Shown in pieces: positions 7,935 to 26,651 of a DNA stretch of 64,000 nt. The position numbers and the translations under genes are program-made. The notes beneath the pieces are model-generated. The model made no database searches. It was not told the DNA's origin and saw only the letters and a list, made by a program, of their open reading frames with translations. The stretch is from assembly GCA_017621875.1 (NCBI GenBank), contig JAGASE010000001.1, positions 372,001 to 436,000 of the forward strand, read 5' to 3'. This stretch comes from Clostridia bacterium. GTDB taxonomy: Bacteria; Bacillota; Clostridia; UBA1381. Each line of letters begins with the position of its first letter. The stretch's first letter is position 1.

Positions 7935-7977
7935 GATAGACATATAAGAATGTCTGTTCCGTATGAGGAACGGCTAA

Positions 7978-8135
7978 TGGTAGAGGTGCGGCGTTTATAA
8001 GTAATCCGGCTTAATTGACAGGCATCACGCTTGATGAAAGGAAATGCCGCCGAAATGTGCAGCTTCGCCTGAGAGGGTGCATGTTGGGACACAGCAGAAT
8101 ATGTTGTGTACTGCCACAAAAGTGGAGCGCTATCA
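7978..8135 (+). ncRNA. Lysine riboswitch (L-box) aptamer
   Basis: The core elements of the L-box are visible in order: TAGAGGTGCGGC at 7981-7992, AAGTAAT in the first internal loop, GCCGCCGAAA near 8045, a GTTGGGACACAGC...GTTGTG arm, CTGCCACAAAAGTGGAGCGC, and closure by CTATCA at 8130-8135 pairing with TGGTAG at 7978-7983 (helix P1). The five-helix layout matches the B. subtilis lysC leader as I recall it. It senses L-lysine and here sits in front of an amino-acid importer, so it should shut off uptake when lysine is plentiful. Confidence 0.93.
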
Positions 8136-8157
8136 CAGTGGGTATTTTGGCATTTAT

Positions 8158-23365: not shown

Positions 23366-23394
23366 TTGACAAATGAAAATAATGGCTGTATAAT
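23366..23394 (+). promoter_or_regulatory. Consensus sigma-A promoter of the metY-cysK transcript
   Basis: TTGACA at 23366-23371 and TATAAT at 23389-23394 with a 17-base spacer. RNA start is expected near 23401, leaving a leader of about 365 bases before metY. Confidence 0.88.
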
Positions 23395-23446
23395 CATAAC
23401 ATACTAAACAGATAGGTTTTATAAACTATATGAGGAGGAAATACAT

Positions 23447-23557
23447 ATGACAACACATATTTTTGTTATTATAATGATGTGCATGTGTGTGATGTGTGCT
23501 TTGAGCTTTTACGGCATGCAGTGTTTGCTACGCATTTATCACTCCTTTAAAGAGTGA
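23447..23557 (+). CDS. Met/Cys-rich leader peptide of the metY-cysK operon
   Basis: A 36-codon frame begins at ATG 23447 behind a perfect GAGGAGG (23432-23438) and ends at TGA 23555-23557. Codons 10-17 read MMCMCVMC: four Met and three Cys in eight codons. In total the peptide has five internal Met and four Cys. It sits between a consensus promoter and a terminator-like hairpin, upstream of the genes that make homocysteine/methionine and cysteine. The sequence therefore looks like a sulfur-amino-acid attenuator in which stalling at Met or Cys codons keeps the operon on. A hairpin (23539-23557) covers the stop codon. Confidence 0.85.
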   Translation: MTTHIFVIIMMCMCVMCALSFYGMQCLLRIYHSFKE

Positions 23558-23582
23558 CTGTATATCAGCAAATATAAACCGT

Positions 23583-23613
23583 AAAATCTTGGGAGCAGGT
23601 GCTTCCGATTTTT
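23583..23613 (+). terminator. Attenuator terminator in the metY leader
   Basis: GGGAGC (23591-23596) pairs with GCTTCC (23601-23606), extended across a TT bulge by AAAATC with GATTTT, then TTTTT. Upstream bases TTTTACGG (23507-23514, inside the leader frame) are exactly complementary to CCGTAAAA (23579-23586), which overlaps the base of this stem: a candidate antiterminator. Confidence 0.7.
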
Positions 23614-23633
23614 ATTATATAGGGGTGTTGGAT

Positions 23634-23702
23634 TTGAGAAAAATATGCATCAAAAGATTTGTATATCTTCTCCGTCATAATTGGCGGTACGGACGAATGT
23701 AA
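23634..23702 (+). CDS. Possible second small reading frame in the metY leader
   Basis: Downstream of the attenuator hairpin, AGGGGTG (23621-23627) precedes TTG at 23634. That frame runs 22 codons to TAA at 23700-23702 and encodes a basic peptide starting LRKICIKRF. It lies within the metY transcript. A GTG at 23625 or TTG at 23628 could also start it. It may be a second leader peptide or chance; only the ribosome site supports it. Confidence 0.3.
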   Translation: MRKICIKRFVYLLRHNWRYGRM

Positions 23703-23767
23703 CGGATAATTTACAGAATATCAAAAACAGCAAATAATAAAAATAATTAAGAAATGAGGAATTAAAA

Positions 23768-25060
23768 ATGGCAAATATAAAGAACACGGAAAATTGGGGA
23801 TTTGAAACAAAGCAATTACATATCGGACAGGAAACTCCGGATTCTGCGACGGGGTCGAGAGCAGTACCTATTTATCAGACAACATCATATGTGTTTAACA
23901 ACTGCGAGCATGCTGCTGCACGTTTTGGGCTTTCTGATGCAGGAAACATTTACGGCAGACTTACAAATTCAACACAGGATGTTTTTGAAAAAAGAATTGC
24001 AGCATTGGAGGGCGGTATAGCTGCACTTGCCGTAGCGTCGGGTGCAGCGGCAATCAGCTATACCATACAAAATTTGGCAGCCGGCGGCGGTCATATCGTT
24101 GCACAAAAAACGGTTTACGGCGGAACCTATAACCTTCTTGCACATACTCTTCCCGAATACGGAATAAAAACGACATTTGTAGACATACATAATCTTGAGG
24201 AGATAAAGTCGGCAATACTTCCTGAAACAAAGGCAATCTTTATTGAAGCTCTCGGAAATCCGAACAGCGATGTACCTAACGTGGAAGAGGTTGCAAAAAT
24301 TGCACATGCAGTAAAAATTCCGTTAGTTATTGATTCTACCTTTGCCACACCGTATCTTTTCAGACCGATTGAACGCGGAGCGGATATAGTTGTTCATTCT
24401 GCAACAAAATTCATCGGCGGACACGGCACAACCTTGGGCGGCGTTATTGTTGACAGCGGAAATTTTGATTGGGAGGCAAGCGGAAAATTCCCATCGCTGA
24501 CCGAGCCGAATCCGAGCTATCACGGCATATCCTTTACAAAGGCTGTCGGAGCTGCCGCGTTTGTAACAAAAATAAGAGCAATATTGCTTCGCGATACAGG
24601 AGCGACTATTTCACCATTCAATGCATTTTTGCTTTTGCAGGGGCTGGAAACGCTTTCTTTGAGAGTTGAAAGGCACGCGGAAAATACGAAAAAGGTAATT
24701 GACTTTTTAAAGACGCATCCGAAGGTGGAAAAAATAAATCATCCGTCGCTGCCGGAGCATCCAAACCACGATTTGTATGAAAAATATTATCCAAACGGCG
24801 GAGGCTCAATTTTTACCTTTGAAATAAAGGGCGGCGAGAATGAAGCAAAGGGTTTTATTGATAAATTGAAGATTTTTTCATTGCTTGCAAATGTTGCCGA
24901 TGTAAAATCTCTTGTTATTCACCCCGCAAGCACGACTCATTCGCAGCTATCGGAGGCTGAGCTTTCTGATCAGGGAATAAAGCCAAACACAGTCAGACTT
25001 TCTGTCGGCACAGAAAGCATCAAGGATATTTTAGCCGACTTAGAACAGGCATTTAATTAA
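23768..25060 (+). CDS. metY: O-acetylhomoserine sulfhydrylase (PLP-dependent, MetY type)
   Basis: Joins O-acetylhomoserine and sulfide to give homocysteine, the precursor of methionine. The 430-residue protein belongs to the Cys/Met-metabolism PLP family. The pyridoxal phosphate Lys lies in VHSATKFIGGHGTTLGG near residue 215, the cofactor region in VASGAAAISYTIQ, and the C-terminal substrate loop in VIHPASTTHSQL. The length near 430, rather than 380-400, favours MetY over cystathionine gamma-synthase or lyase. It follows the Met/Cys leader and is 19 bases from cysK. RBS TGAGG precedes ATG at 23768. Confidence 0.94.
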   Translation: MANIKNTENWGFETKQLHIGQETPDSATGSRAVPIYQTTSYVFNNCEHAAARFGLSDAGNIYGRLTNSTQDVFEKRIAALEGGIAALAVASGAAAISYTIQNLAAGGGHIVAQKTVYGGTYNLLAHTLPEYGIKTTFVDIHNLEEIKSAILPETKAIFIEALGNPNSDVPNVEEVAKIAHAVKIPLVIDSTFATPYLFRPIERGADIVVHSATKFIGGHGTTLGGVIVDSGNFDWEASGKFPSLTEPNPSYHGISFTKAVGAAAFVTKIRAILLRDTGATISPFNAFLLLQGLETLSLRVERHAENTKKVIDFLKTHPKVEKINHPSLPEHPNHDLYEKYYPNGGGSIFTFEIKGGENEAKGFIDKLKIFSLLANVADVKSLVIHPASTTHSQLSEAELSDQGIKPNTVRLSVGTESIKDILADLEQAFN

Positions 25061-25079: not shown

Positions 25080-26006
25080 ATGAAAATCCATAAAAAAATA
25101 ACAGACCTGATTGGTTCAACGCCTCTTTTGGAGCTTACAAGCTATGAGCAAAATAATGAGCTTTCGGCTACAATCTTAGCAAAGCTTGAATATTTTAATC
25201 CGGCAGGCTCGGTAAAGGACAGAATTGCAAATGCAATGATAACCGCTGCAGAGCAAAGCGGAAAATTAAAAAAAGGGTCGGTAATAATTGAACCGACAAG
25301 CGGAAATACAGGAATAGGACTTGCTGCAGTTGCGGCATCGAAGGGCTACAGGGTTATTCTCACCATGCCCGAAACGATGAGCATAGAAAGAAGAAATCTC
25401 TTAAAAGCATACGGTGCGGAGCTTGTTCTTACCGAAGGTGAAAAAGGAATGAAGGGAGCTATTGCAAAAGCAGAAGAATTGGCAAAGAACACCCCCGGCA
25501 GCTTTGTTCCGAGCCAGTTTACAAATCCTGAAAATCCCCTCGTGCATAAAAACACAACAGGTCCTGAAATATGGAAGGATACAGACGGAAAGGTTGATAT
25601 TTTTGTGGCAGGTGTAGGAACCGGCGGAACAGTTACAGGAGTTGGCGAATATTTAAAATCGCAAAATCCCGATATTAAAATTGTTGCGGTTGAGCCAAGC
25701 GGTTCTCCTGTGCTTTCAAAAGGAACGCCGGGAGCACATAAAATCCAGGGAATCGGAGCAGGCTTTGTGCCGGATACACTTAACACAGGTATTTATGATG
25801 AAATAATTACCGTAGAGAATGAGCAGGCTTTCCAAACGGGCAGAGACCTTGCAAGAAACGAGGGCTTGTTGGTGGGAATATCTTCCGGAGCTGCGATTTA
25901 TGCCGCAACAGTTCTCGCAAAGCGACCTGAAAACAAAGGTAAAATAATTGTTGCACTTCTTCCCGATACAGGAGACAGATATTTGTCAACGCCGATGTTC
26001 TCATAA
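25080..26006 (+). CDS. cysK: Cysteine synthase A (O-acetylserine sulfhydrylase)
   Basis: Makes cysteine from O-acetylserine and sulfide with PLP. The 308-residue protein has the cofactor Lys in [11 protein letters not shown] near residue 45, the substrate loop [10 protein letters not shown], the phosphate-binding loop [10 protein letters not shown] and the C-terminal GISSGAA motif. RBS AAAGGAG precedes ATG at 25080. It forms a two-gene sulfur operon with metY behind the Met/Cys leader, so both sulfide-fixing routes appear to be controlled together. The operon ends at a terminator shared with the convergent Rrf2 regulator gene. Confidence 0.96.
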
Positions 26007-26076: not shown

Positions 26077-26514
26077 TTAAATTTCATAATTATGAGCATC
26101 AAGCTCTTTTTGATTTTCCAGAATATCCTGCAGCGTAATACCGTCAAGGTATTCATTTATTACCTTATGCAGTCCCTTCCATATCGGAAGAGTAACACAG
26201 GAATTACTTCTGTCGCATTGATTGGGAGTTTGCTCAAGACAGGAAACCGGTGCAAGACCGCCTTCGGTAAGTCTTAATATTTCGCCGACAGTATATTCTT
26301 TAGGTGCTTTTGCTAATTTATATCCGCCCTGATATCCTCTGCCGGTAATAAGAATACCGCTGCCGCTCAAAAGCGGAACTATCTGTTCTAAATATTTTTT
26401 GGATACACCCTGTCTTTCGGCTATATCCTTAAGTGCTACAAAACCGTTATCTGCGTTTTGGGCAAGGTCAATTAACATTCTGAGGGCATATCTGCCCTTT
26501 GTTGAAATTTTCAT
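26077..26514 (-). CDS. Rrf2-family transcriptional regulator (CymR/IscR-like)
   Basis: A winged-helix regulator of 145 residues. MKISTKGRYALRMLIDLA and the helix-turn-helix GVSKKYLEQIVPLLSGSGI with the wing GRGYQGGYKLA are typical of Rrf2. The second half carries three cysteines (C-x7-C-x5-C), near the IscR arrangement (C-x5-C-x5-C), so an iron-sulfur cluster is possible. It faces metY-cysK, and in Bacillus the Rrf2 member CymR represses cysteine synthesis genes together with CysK. A role in sulfur or iron-sulfur control is therefore inferred. ATG at 26514 is preferred to GTG 26523 or ATG 26520, because GAGG sits 8 bases upstream. Confidence 0.92.
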   Translation of the reverse strand: MKISTKGRYALRMLIDLAQNADNGFVALKDIAERQGVSKKYLEQIVPLLSGSGILITGRGYQGGYKLAKAPKEYTVGEILRLTEGGLAPVSCLEQTPNQCDRSNSCVTLPIWKGLHKVINEYLDGITLQDILENQKELDAHNYEI

Positions 26515-26651
26515 TTGCATCACCTCTTTGTACTATAATACCATAAATTAAATACGTTTTCAAGGAAAACACGTAAATGGAGCGGCAACAAGAAAGGCAC
26601 AGCCGTATTTTTGACATAAAAATACGGCAAACCAAAAGGTTTGCCGTGATG

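Follow-up and report, generated by a model that had tools for sequence, protein, structure and literature searches.

The region between the promoter and metY in the window (the whole 64,000-nt stretch of DNA that was analysed) is very probably a ribosome-mediated transcription attenuator of metY-cysK that responds to both Met and Cys. The preliminary description had already proposed a Met/Cys-responsive attenuator, and conservation of the Met/Cys run, covariation and modelled stall geometry speak for that reading; it was incomplete, as it mentioned neither the operator-like box that lies at the promoter nor the second leader. As judged by sequence comparison, the case rests on conservation rather than on the window's own sequence. 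The window comes from a draft genome (G000) of 24 contigs that is 93% complete. The promoter, the leader and the controlled genes are as follows:

23366-23371 and 23389-23394, + strand: sigma-70-type promoter, TTGACA and TATAAT separated by 17 nt (direct reading)
23432-23438, + strand: Shine-Dalgarno (SD) sequence GAGGAGG of the Met/Cys leader, 8 nt before the ATG
23447-23557, + strand: Met/Cys leader peptide ORF of 36 aa, MTTHIFVIIMMCMCVMCALSFYGMQCLLRIYHSFKE (direct reading; homologues in relatives)
23474-23497, + strand: sensor run MMCMCVMC, codons 10-17, of which codons 10-14 are the modelled stall positions for read-through
23768-25060, + strand: metY, O-acetylhomoserine sulfhydrylase (TIGR01326, 626 bits against a cut-off of 495)
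25080-26006, + strand: cysK, cysteine synthase (TIGR01139, 465 bits against a cut-off of 351)

The two genes are separated by 19 nt, and cysK is likely co-transcribed with metY. Both the consensus promoter (23366-23394) and the GAGGAGG-supported 36-codon frame with MMCMCVMC at codons 10-17 are present as first described, and the layout TTGACA-17-TATAAT was also found upstream of most orthologous metY genes when upstream regions were compared. Met and Cys make up seven of the eight residues of the run, a density that was reached in none of 3000 dinucleotide shuffles of 23366-23767. Among the 271 SD-preceded short ORFs of the window it occurs only in the leader and in an antisense poly-Cys frame; the latter, at ~39727 on the minus strand, carries seven consecutive Cys residues and Arg/Glu repeats and is probably the complement of a repetitive gene. 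A search of NCBIfam with the Met/Cys leader and the second (RM) leader returned no family at E<=1. A translatable short ORF with clustered pathway codons, as is expected of a leader-peptide attenuator, is present in the window, and it is conserved in relatives. The RNA elements that would act together with this leader are:

23498-23514, + strand: antiterminator 5' strand GCTTTGAGCTTTTACGG, with its core TTTTACGG at 23507-23514 (duplex tests, covariation)
23579-23596, + strand: antiterminator 3' strand CCGTAAAATCTTGGGAGC, which shares bases with the terminator 5' arm (duplex tests, covariation)
about 23583-23616, + strand: intrinsic terminator AAAATCTTGGGAGC AGGT GCTTCCGATTTTT (folding; counterparts in loci L002, L149, L229, L234 and L238)
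23492-23519, + strand: possible protector hairpin ATGTGTGC...GCATGC, masking the antiterminator strand (minimum-energy folds)
23522-23575, + strand: helix GTGTTTGCT:AGCAAATAT, nested within the antiterminator (folds; counterpart helices in L002, L149 and L229)

An intrinsic terminator thus lies between the leader and the structural gene, in the window as well as in the homologous loci. Folding confirmed the terminator-like hairpin previously placed at 23583-23613, which is of medium strength (core about -10.3 kcal/mol), and the exact 8-base complement between TTTTACGG (23507-23514) and CCGTAAAA (23579-23586) is indeed there. As single-sequence evidence this complement is modest: the leader:terminator duplex of the window was equalled or bettered by 13 of 500 shuffled leaders in one test and by 34 of 1000 in another, and the window helix is the weakest of its group, comprising 8 bp, a C-U mismatch and then a G-U-rich extension. 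The fold of the whole region was set aside as evidence because its stability is not unusual (z = -1.56). The protector hairpin, which had been overlooked, is able to occupy the antiterminator segment in folds of a leader that carries no ribosome. The register of the nested helix differs between the window and its relatives.

The elements missing from the preliminary description, together with a neighbouring regulator gene, are:

23400-23423, + strand: operator-like box CATACTAAACAGATAGGTTTTATA, directly downstream of the -10 element, its position conserved across the family
23634-23702, + strand: second leader ORF (RM leader) of 22 aa with a TTG start, (M)RKICIKRFVYLLRHNWRYGRM (SD-preceded, profile match E 9e-9)
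23694-23699, + strand: codon pair CGA-ATG, conserved among RM leaders (codon count in leaders)
26077-26523, - strand: Rrf2-family regulator gene downstream of cysK (Rrf2 superfamily TIGR00738, above cut-off)

Counterparts of the box, e.g. CATAGTAATTCTATAGGAAAT, are found at an equal placement upstream of other metY genes of the family, and it is likely an Rrf2/CymR-type operator. The protein encoded at 26077-26523 is a candidate for reading it; this gene fails the CymR equivalog (NF047409, 111.7 bits against a cut-off of 195). The RM leader follows the terminator, ends in LLRHNWRYGRM and is the sole match of its profile in G000. With homologues in >60 metY upstream regions, in variants such as LVRxNFRFGRM, LLRxNWRxGRM, SGRMCRC and ERM, it is the most widespread feature upstream of metY. 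No terminator was found downstream of it, and our guess is that it acts via mRNA protection by a stalled ribosome or via a translation-linked effect.

For the comparison with relatives, we took the upstream regions of metY orthologues from the genus, family, order and class and from named genomes. Most of the named relatives are Clostridia-type bacteria and MAGs, and on this ground G000 is treated as belonging to Clostridia. The preliminary description had made its reading depend on similar Met/Cys-rich short frames with terminators upstream of metY, and these exist across different families. A Met/Cys-run leader with a terminator was found in L002 (MRTIVFINSIMCMCMMCMPGNC...) and L149 (MYAKNLSGNNMCMMCSQG...), in L029, L072, L076, L167 and L175 (...MMWMCMWICQMC... 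or a near variant), and in L103 (...EMCMWICRMRKFC...), L205 (...SMCCMCNGECFSC...) and L208 (...SMCCMQDMMCFSC...). In all of these a segment within the ORF complements the terminator 5' arm with differing letters, so that both the Met/Cys codons and the complementary segments are conserved, the pairing being kept despite changed letters. The leaders of L002, L149, L229, L234 and L238 are homologous to that of the window, and those of the L029 group, L103, L205 and L208 are analogous. Between groups the Met/Cys content is kept without the exact order (MMCMCVMC, MCMCMMCM, MCMMC, CGMMC, MCCMC), which is the expectation for a sensor. Family-level searches around genomes G270 and G171 yielded no additional leader type.

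One helix is built from different letters in the window (TTTTACGG:CCGTAAAA), L002 (GTAATTGCAT:ATGCAGTTAC) and L149 (GCAGTTACAT:ATGTAATTGC), and also in L229. Across these four loci 93.8% of the antiterminator pairs are standard and five are two-sided compensatory pairs, the window's outer two pairs having been excluded because a MAFFT gap shifted their register. The covariation score is 0.397, compared with <=0.127 for registers slid by 1-3 columns, in which pairing drops to <=54%. Once L234, L238 and the relic L065 are included (seven loci), standard pairs amount to 91.4%, in an alignment that was fitted to the model and is hence biased toward it. Measured against 1000 shuffled leaders each, with duplex targets hand-set after inspection, the pairing was matched by 1 shuffle for L002, 4 for L208, 5 for L072, 9 for L149, 22 for L029, 25 for L205, 34 for the window and 220 for L103; in the last, the arrangement is present and the duplex is no better than shuffles.

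A covariance model built from four loci recovers the known loci as well as new copies, L234 and L238, and finds a single copy in G000. In L229 (1295-1438) and L238 (about 1459-1584, MNTALLVNGMMCICMMCISGNC...) the window-type Met/Cys leader precedes an ABC transporter; that of L238 resembles the one behind L229, and both appear to be of the NitT/TauT type, a substrate assignment that is tentative as NCBIfam scores fall below cut-offs. In L234 (G047:C6:2568-2713, minus strand), leader and terminator are nearly those of L002, the second leader is broken, and the gene that follows reads as DUF523-like by its sequence, NCBIfam giving no match; L234 looks like a recently transposed or duplicated leader. 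A further candidate, L239 (E 0.0054), was dropped because it has no Met/Cys leader.

This distribution bears on the possibility that the operator and the RM leader alone regulate metY, the Met/Cys ORF being an insertion that is neutral or decaying and whose terminator is weak. The Met/Cys leader occurs at far fewer loci than either the operator-like box or the RM leader: upstream of many metY orthologues there is the second leader alone or no leader, and in L147, L148, L026, L027 and L062 the Met/Cys leader is absent upstream of metY genes that are 84-87% identical. Moreover, L065/L236 (G021:C65), where metY lies at a contig end, is a relic that has kept the terminator and lost the Met/Cys run, the operator-like box and the second leader; the device is therefore dispensable, and we do not count this locus as support. 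Neutral sequence, however, would lose the run, the pairing and the copies before other genes, whereas run and pairing persist, with compensatory changes, while the sequence turns over, and the element also precedes other genes. We consider this alternative improbable and retain the attenuator reading.

A related attenuator points in the same direction. Many metY leaders of Lachnospiraceae- and Oscillospiraceae-type genomes read ...MCCRMxxSRAxxMAG... in their peptide. The loci with this type of attenuator, before metY or before other genes, are L087, L094, L099, L100, L106, L108, L109, L112, L121, L125, L139, L144, L145, L173, L200 and L210-L219. Here CTCCCGGGCA lies within the ORF and TGCCCGGGAG is the terminator arm, the antiterminator pairing being CTCCCGGGCA:TGCCCGGGAG. 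Among 391 genomes of the class, 8 contain the pattern CGAATGN5CTCCCGGGYA, with 10 occurrences in total (reversed control, 0): four are upstream of MetQ/NlpA-type lipoproteins, two of metY, two of amino-acid ABC permeases, and one each of a cystathionine-lyase/synthase-type gene and a cysK fragment. In those MCCRM metY loci that were scanned, no Rfam family reached the gathering threshold. The MCCRM-type attenuator, which sits before metY, metQ-type, cystathionine-lyase-type and amino-acid transporter genes, supports the general reading that leaders of sulfur genes attenuate by means of Met and Cys codons. In MCCRM leaders such as L094, L109 and L112 the leader SD GGAGGCGC also complements GCGCCTC in the same ORF, which suggests feedback on leader translation.

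Pairing with the arm itself also matters for a second alternative, in which the long-range helix adjoins and stabilizes the terminator, promoting termination instead of competing with it. The minimum-energy folds computed for L002 and L149 do contain both structures, the inner helix abutting the terminator. Yet in L205, L208, L029/L072 and the MCCRM attenuators the leader segment complements and pairs with the terminator arm outright, and in the window, L002 and L149 the extended helix covers the 5' arm as well. A competing antiterminator with compensatory changes is thus present, its competition for the arm partial in the core helix and full when extended, and a pro-termination role appears quite unlikely. 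Least plausible is that the Met/Cys ORF makes a functional small peptide, e.g. a metal- or thiol-binding one: Cys/Met clusters look like metal ligands and positions after the run are alike between homologues (GNCI.R.LYAL), but composition is kept and not order or spacing, the ORF always lies between the promoter and the terminator of a sulfur gene, and the like positions after the run encode the antiterminator strand.

The attenuator reading further agrees with a geometry model in which the RNA 3' of a modelled ribosome was folded, the transcript ended before the terminator 3' arm and the ribosome footprint was assumed. For the window, the modelled uptake of the terminator 5' arm by the leader is 0.82 with the A-site at M10-C14, 0.33 at V15, 0.06 at M16 and 0 at C17; footprints from +12 to +17 move this predicted switch point by about one codon. 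In most other loci the modelled pairing is lost close to where the Met/Cys run of the locus ends, L149 being an exception in which the loss starts inside the run and some pairing is back downstream. As modelled, a stall at the sensor codons would free the antiterminator and onward movement would block it, as expected of a leader-peptide attenuator.

We infer stalling, antitermination in vivo and the response to Met and Cys as follows. Transcription would begin at the promoter, probably under Rrf2/CymR-type repression, and a ribosome would initiate on the 36-codon leader. Scarcity of Met-tRNA or Cys-tRNA would stall it with its A-site at codons 10-14, leaving GCTTTGAGCTTTTACGG free ahead of the ribosome to pair with CCGTAAAATCTTGGGAGC; with the terminator 5' arm thus captured, RNA polymerase would continue into metY-cysK. 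When Met and Cys are both plentiful, the ribosome would cover GCTTTGAGCTTTTACGG, the terminator would form and transcription would end. Beyond the terminator, the RM leader may add a further translation-linked step. The mechanism presupposes close coupling of ribosome and polymerase in this lineage, and since such attenuation requires it, coupling would become testable in these bacteria.

The RM and MCCRM leaders share a peculiarity of codon use. Of 88 Arg codons before Met, 85 are CGA, and CGA accounts for 24 of 34 Arg codons before Cys and 17 of 175 before other residues; these counts are not independent, many leaders being related, and the other Arg positions in the same peptides serve as internal control. 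For comparison, the long genes at these loci use CGA for 8.5% of Arg codons before Met, 10.6% before Cys and 5.9% before others. Wobble positions nearby vary freely (Gly: GGA 41, GGG 9, GGT 2, GGC 2; near-equal use of the two codons for Phe and for Asn), which disfavours an RNA motif behind the CGA invariance and makes a codon-level cause likelier. Arg tRNA anticodons found in the G000 draft are UCU, ACG, CCG and CCU; as no UCG was seen among the tRNA genes of this possibly incomplete assembly, CGA would be decoded by an inosine tRNA. Read through an I:A wobble pair, CGA is a slow codon, and in enterobacteria sulfur modification of tRNA-Arg(ICG) affects CGA decoding. It is possible, if rather doubtful, that sulfur genes of Clostridia possess a leader family whose slow CGA, placed immediately ahead of Met or Cys, itself contributes to sulfur sensing; CGA-ATG-stop of the window would be a codon-specific sensor that lacks a terminator. 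This could work in two ways: the I34:A pair in the P-site would make the following Met/Cys codon hypersensitive to charging, or tRNA-Arg(ICG) would need sulfur modification to decode CGA. The near-invariant CGA-AUG pair offers a concrete handle on the question whether codon identity, beyond amino-acid identity, can serve as a regulatory signal.

The mechanism class, ribosome-mediated attenuation, is already known. Like the trp, his and pheA leaders of enterobacteria and the hisS/hisZ leader of bacilli (PMC2965389), the window has an SD-led ORF of pathway codons, alternative pairing and a matching stall geometry; unlike these classical attenuators, with which it shares no sequence homology, it combines Met and Cys in one run, occurs in Clostridia and has a second conserved leader ORF. 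The polycysteine sORF attenuators of mycobacteria (Canestrari 2020, cited in PMC9094748), judging by the title of that study, likewise place Cys codons in a short upstream ORF for Cys-responsive operon control; they use Cys alone and a leaderless start, whereas the window leader is SD-led, mixes Met and Cys and has an intrinsic terminator with a covarying antiterminator. Comparable, too, is uORFC-8-2 upstream of cysS in Rhodobacterales, with tandem Cys codons 14-15 and a terminator stem (PMC8632094), which differs in being alphaproteobacterial, in its target gene and in sensing Cys only.

Closer in phylogeny, the Cys T-box of C. perfringens and the S-box (SAM) riboswitch also terminate transcription prematurely at clostridial Cys/Met genes (PMC2940859), but there the RNA senses tRNA or SAM directly, without translation. 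Neither was found at our locus: the window contains no T-box at the Rfam gathering threshold and no SAM (S-box) match upstream of metY, its only Rfam matches being three tRNAs and a lysine riboswitch (7973-8140, + strand, RF00168, 100 bits). CymR/CysK repression in B. subtilis and S. aureus (PMC2940859) has its likeness in the Rrf2-type gene beside metY-cysK and the operator-like box; it acts on transcription initiation and not by attenuation, and in the window would form a separate layer. A literature search, with most subscription papers outside its reach, returned no description of these leaders, so that the dual Met/Cys specificity in Clostridia, the leader family and the CGA signature appear undescribed in searchable sources. 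Clostridial sulfur control has been described via T-boxes, SAM riboswitches and CymR, and a study of 2010 noted that other mechanisms may exist (PMC2940859); if true, the dual Met/Cys attenuator and its MCCRM relative would partly fill this gap.
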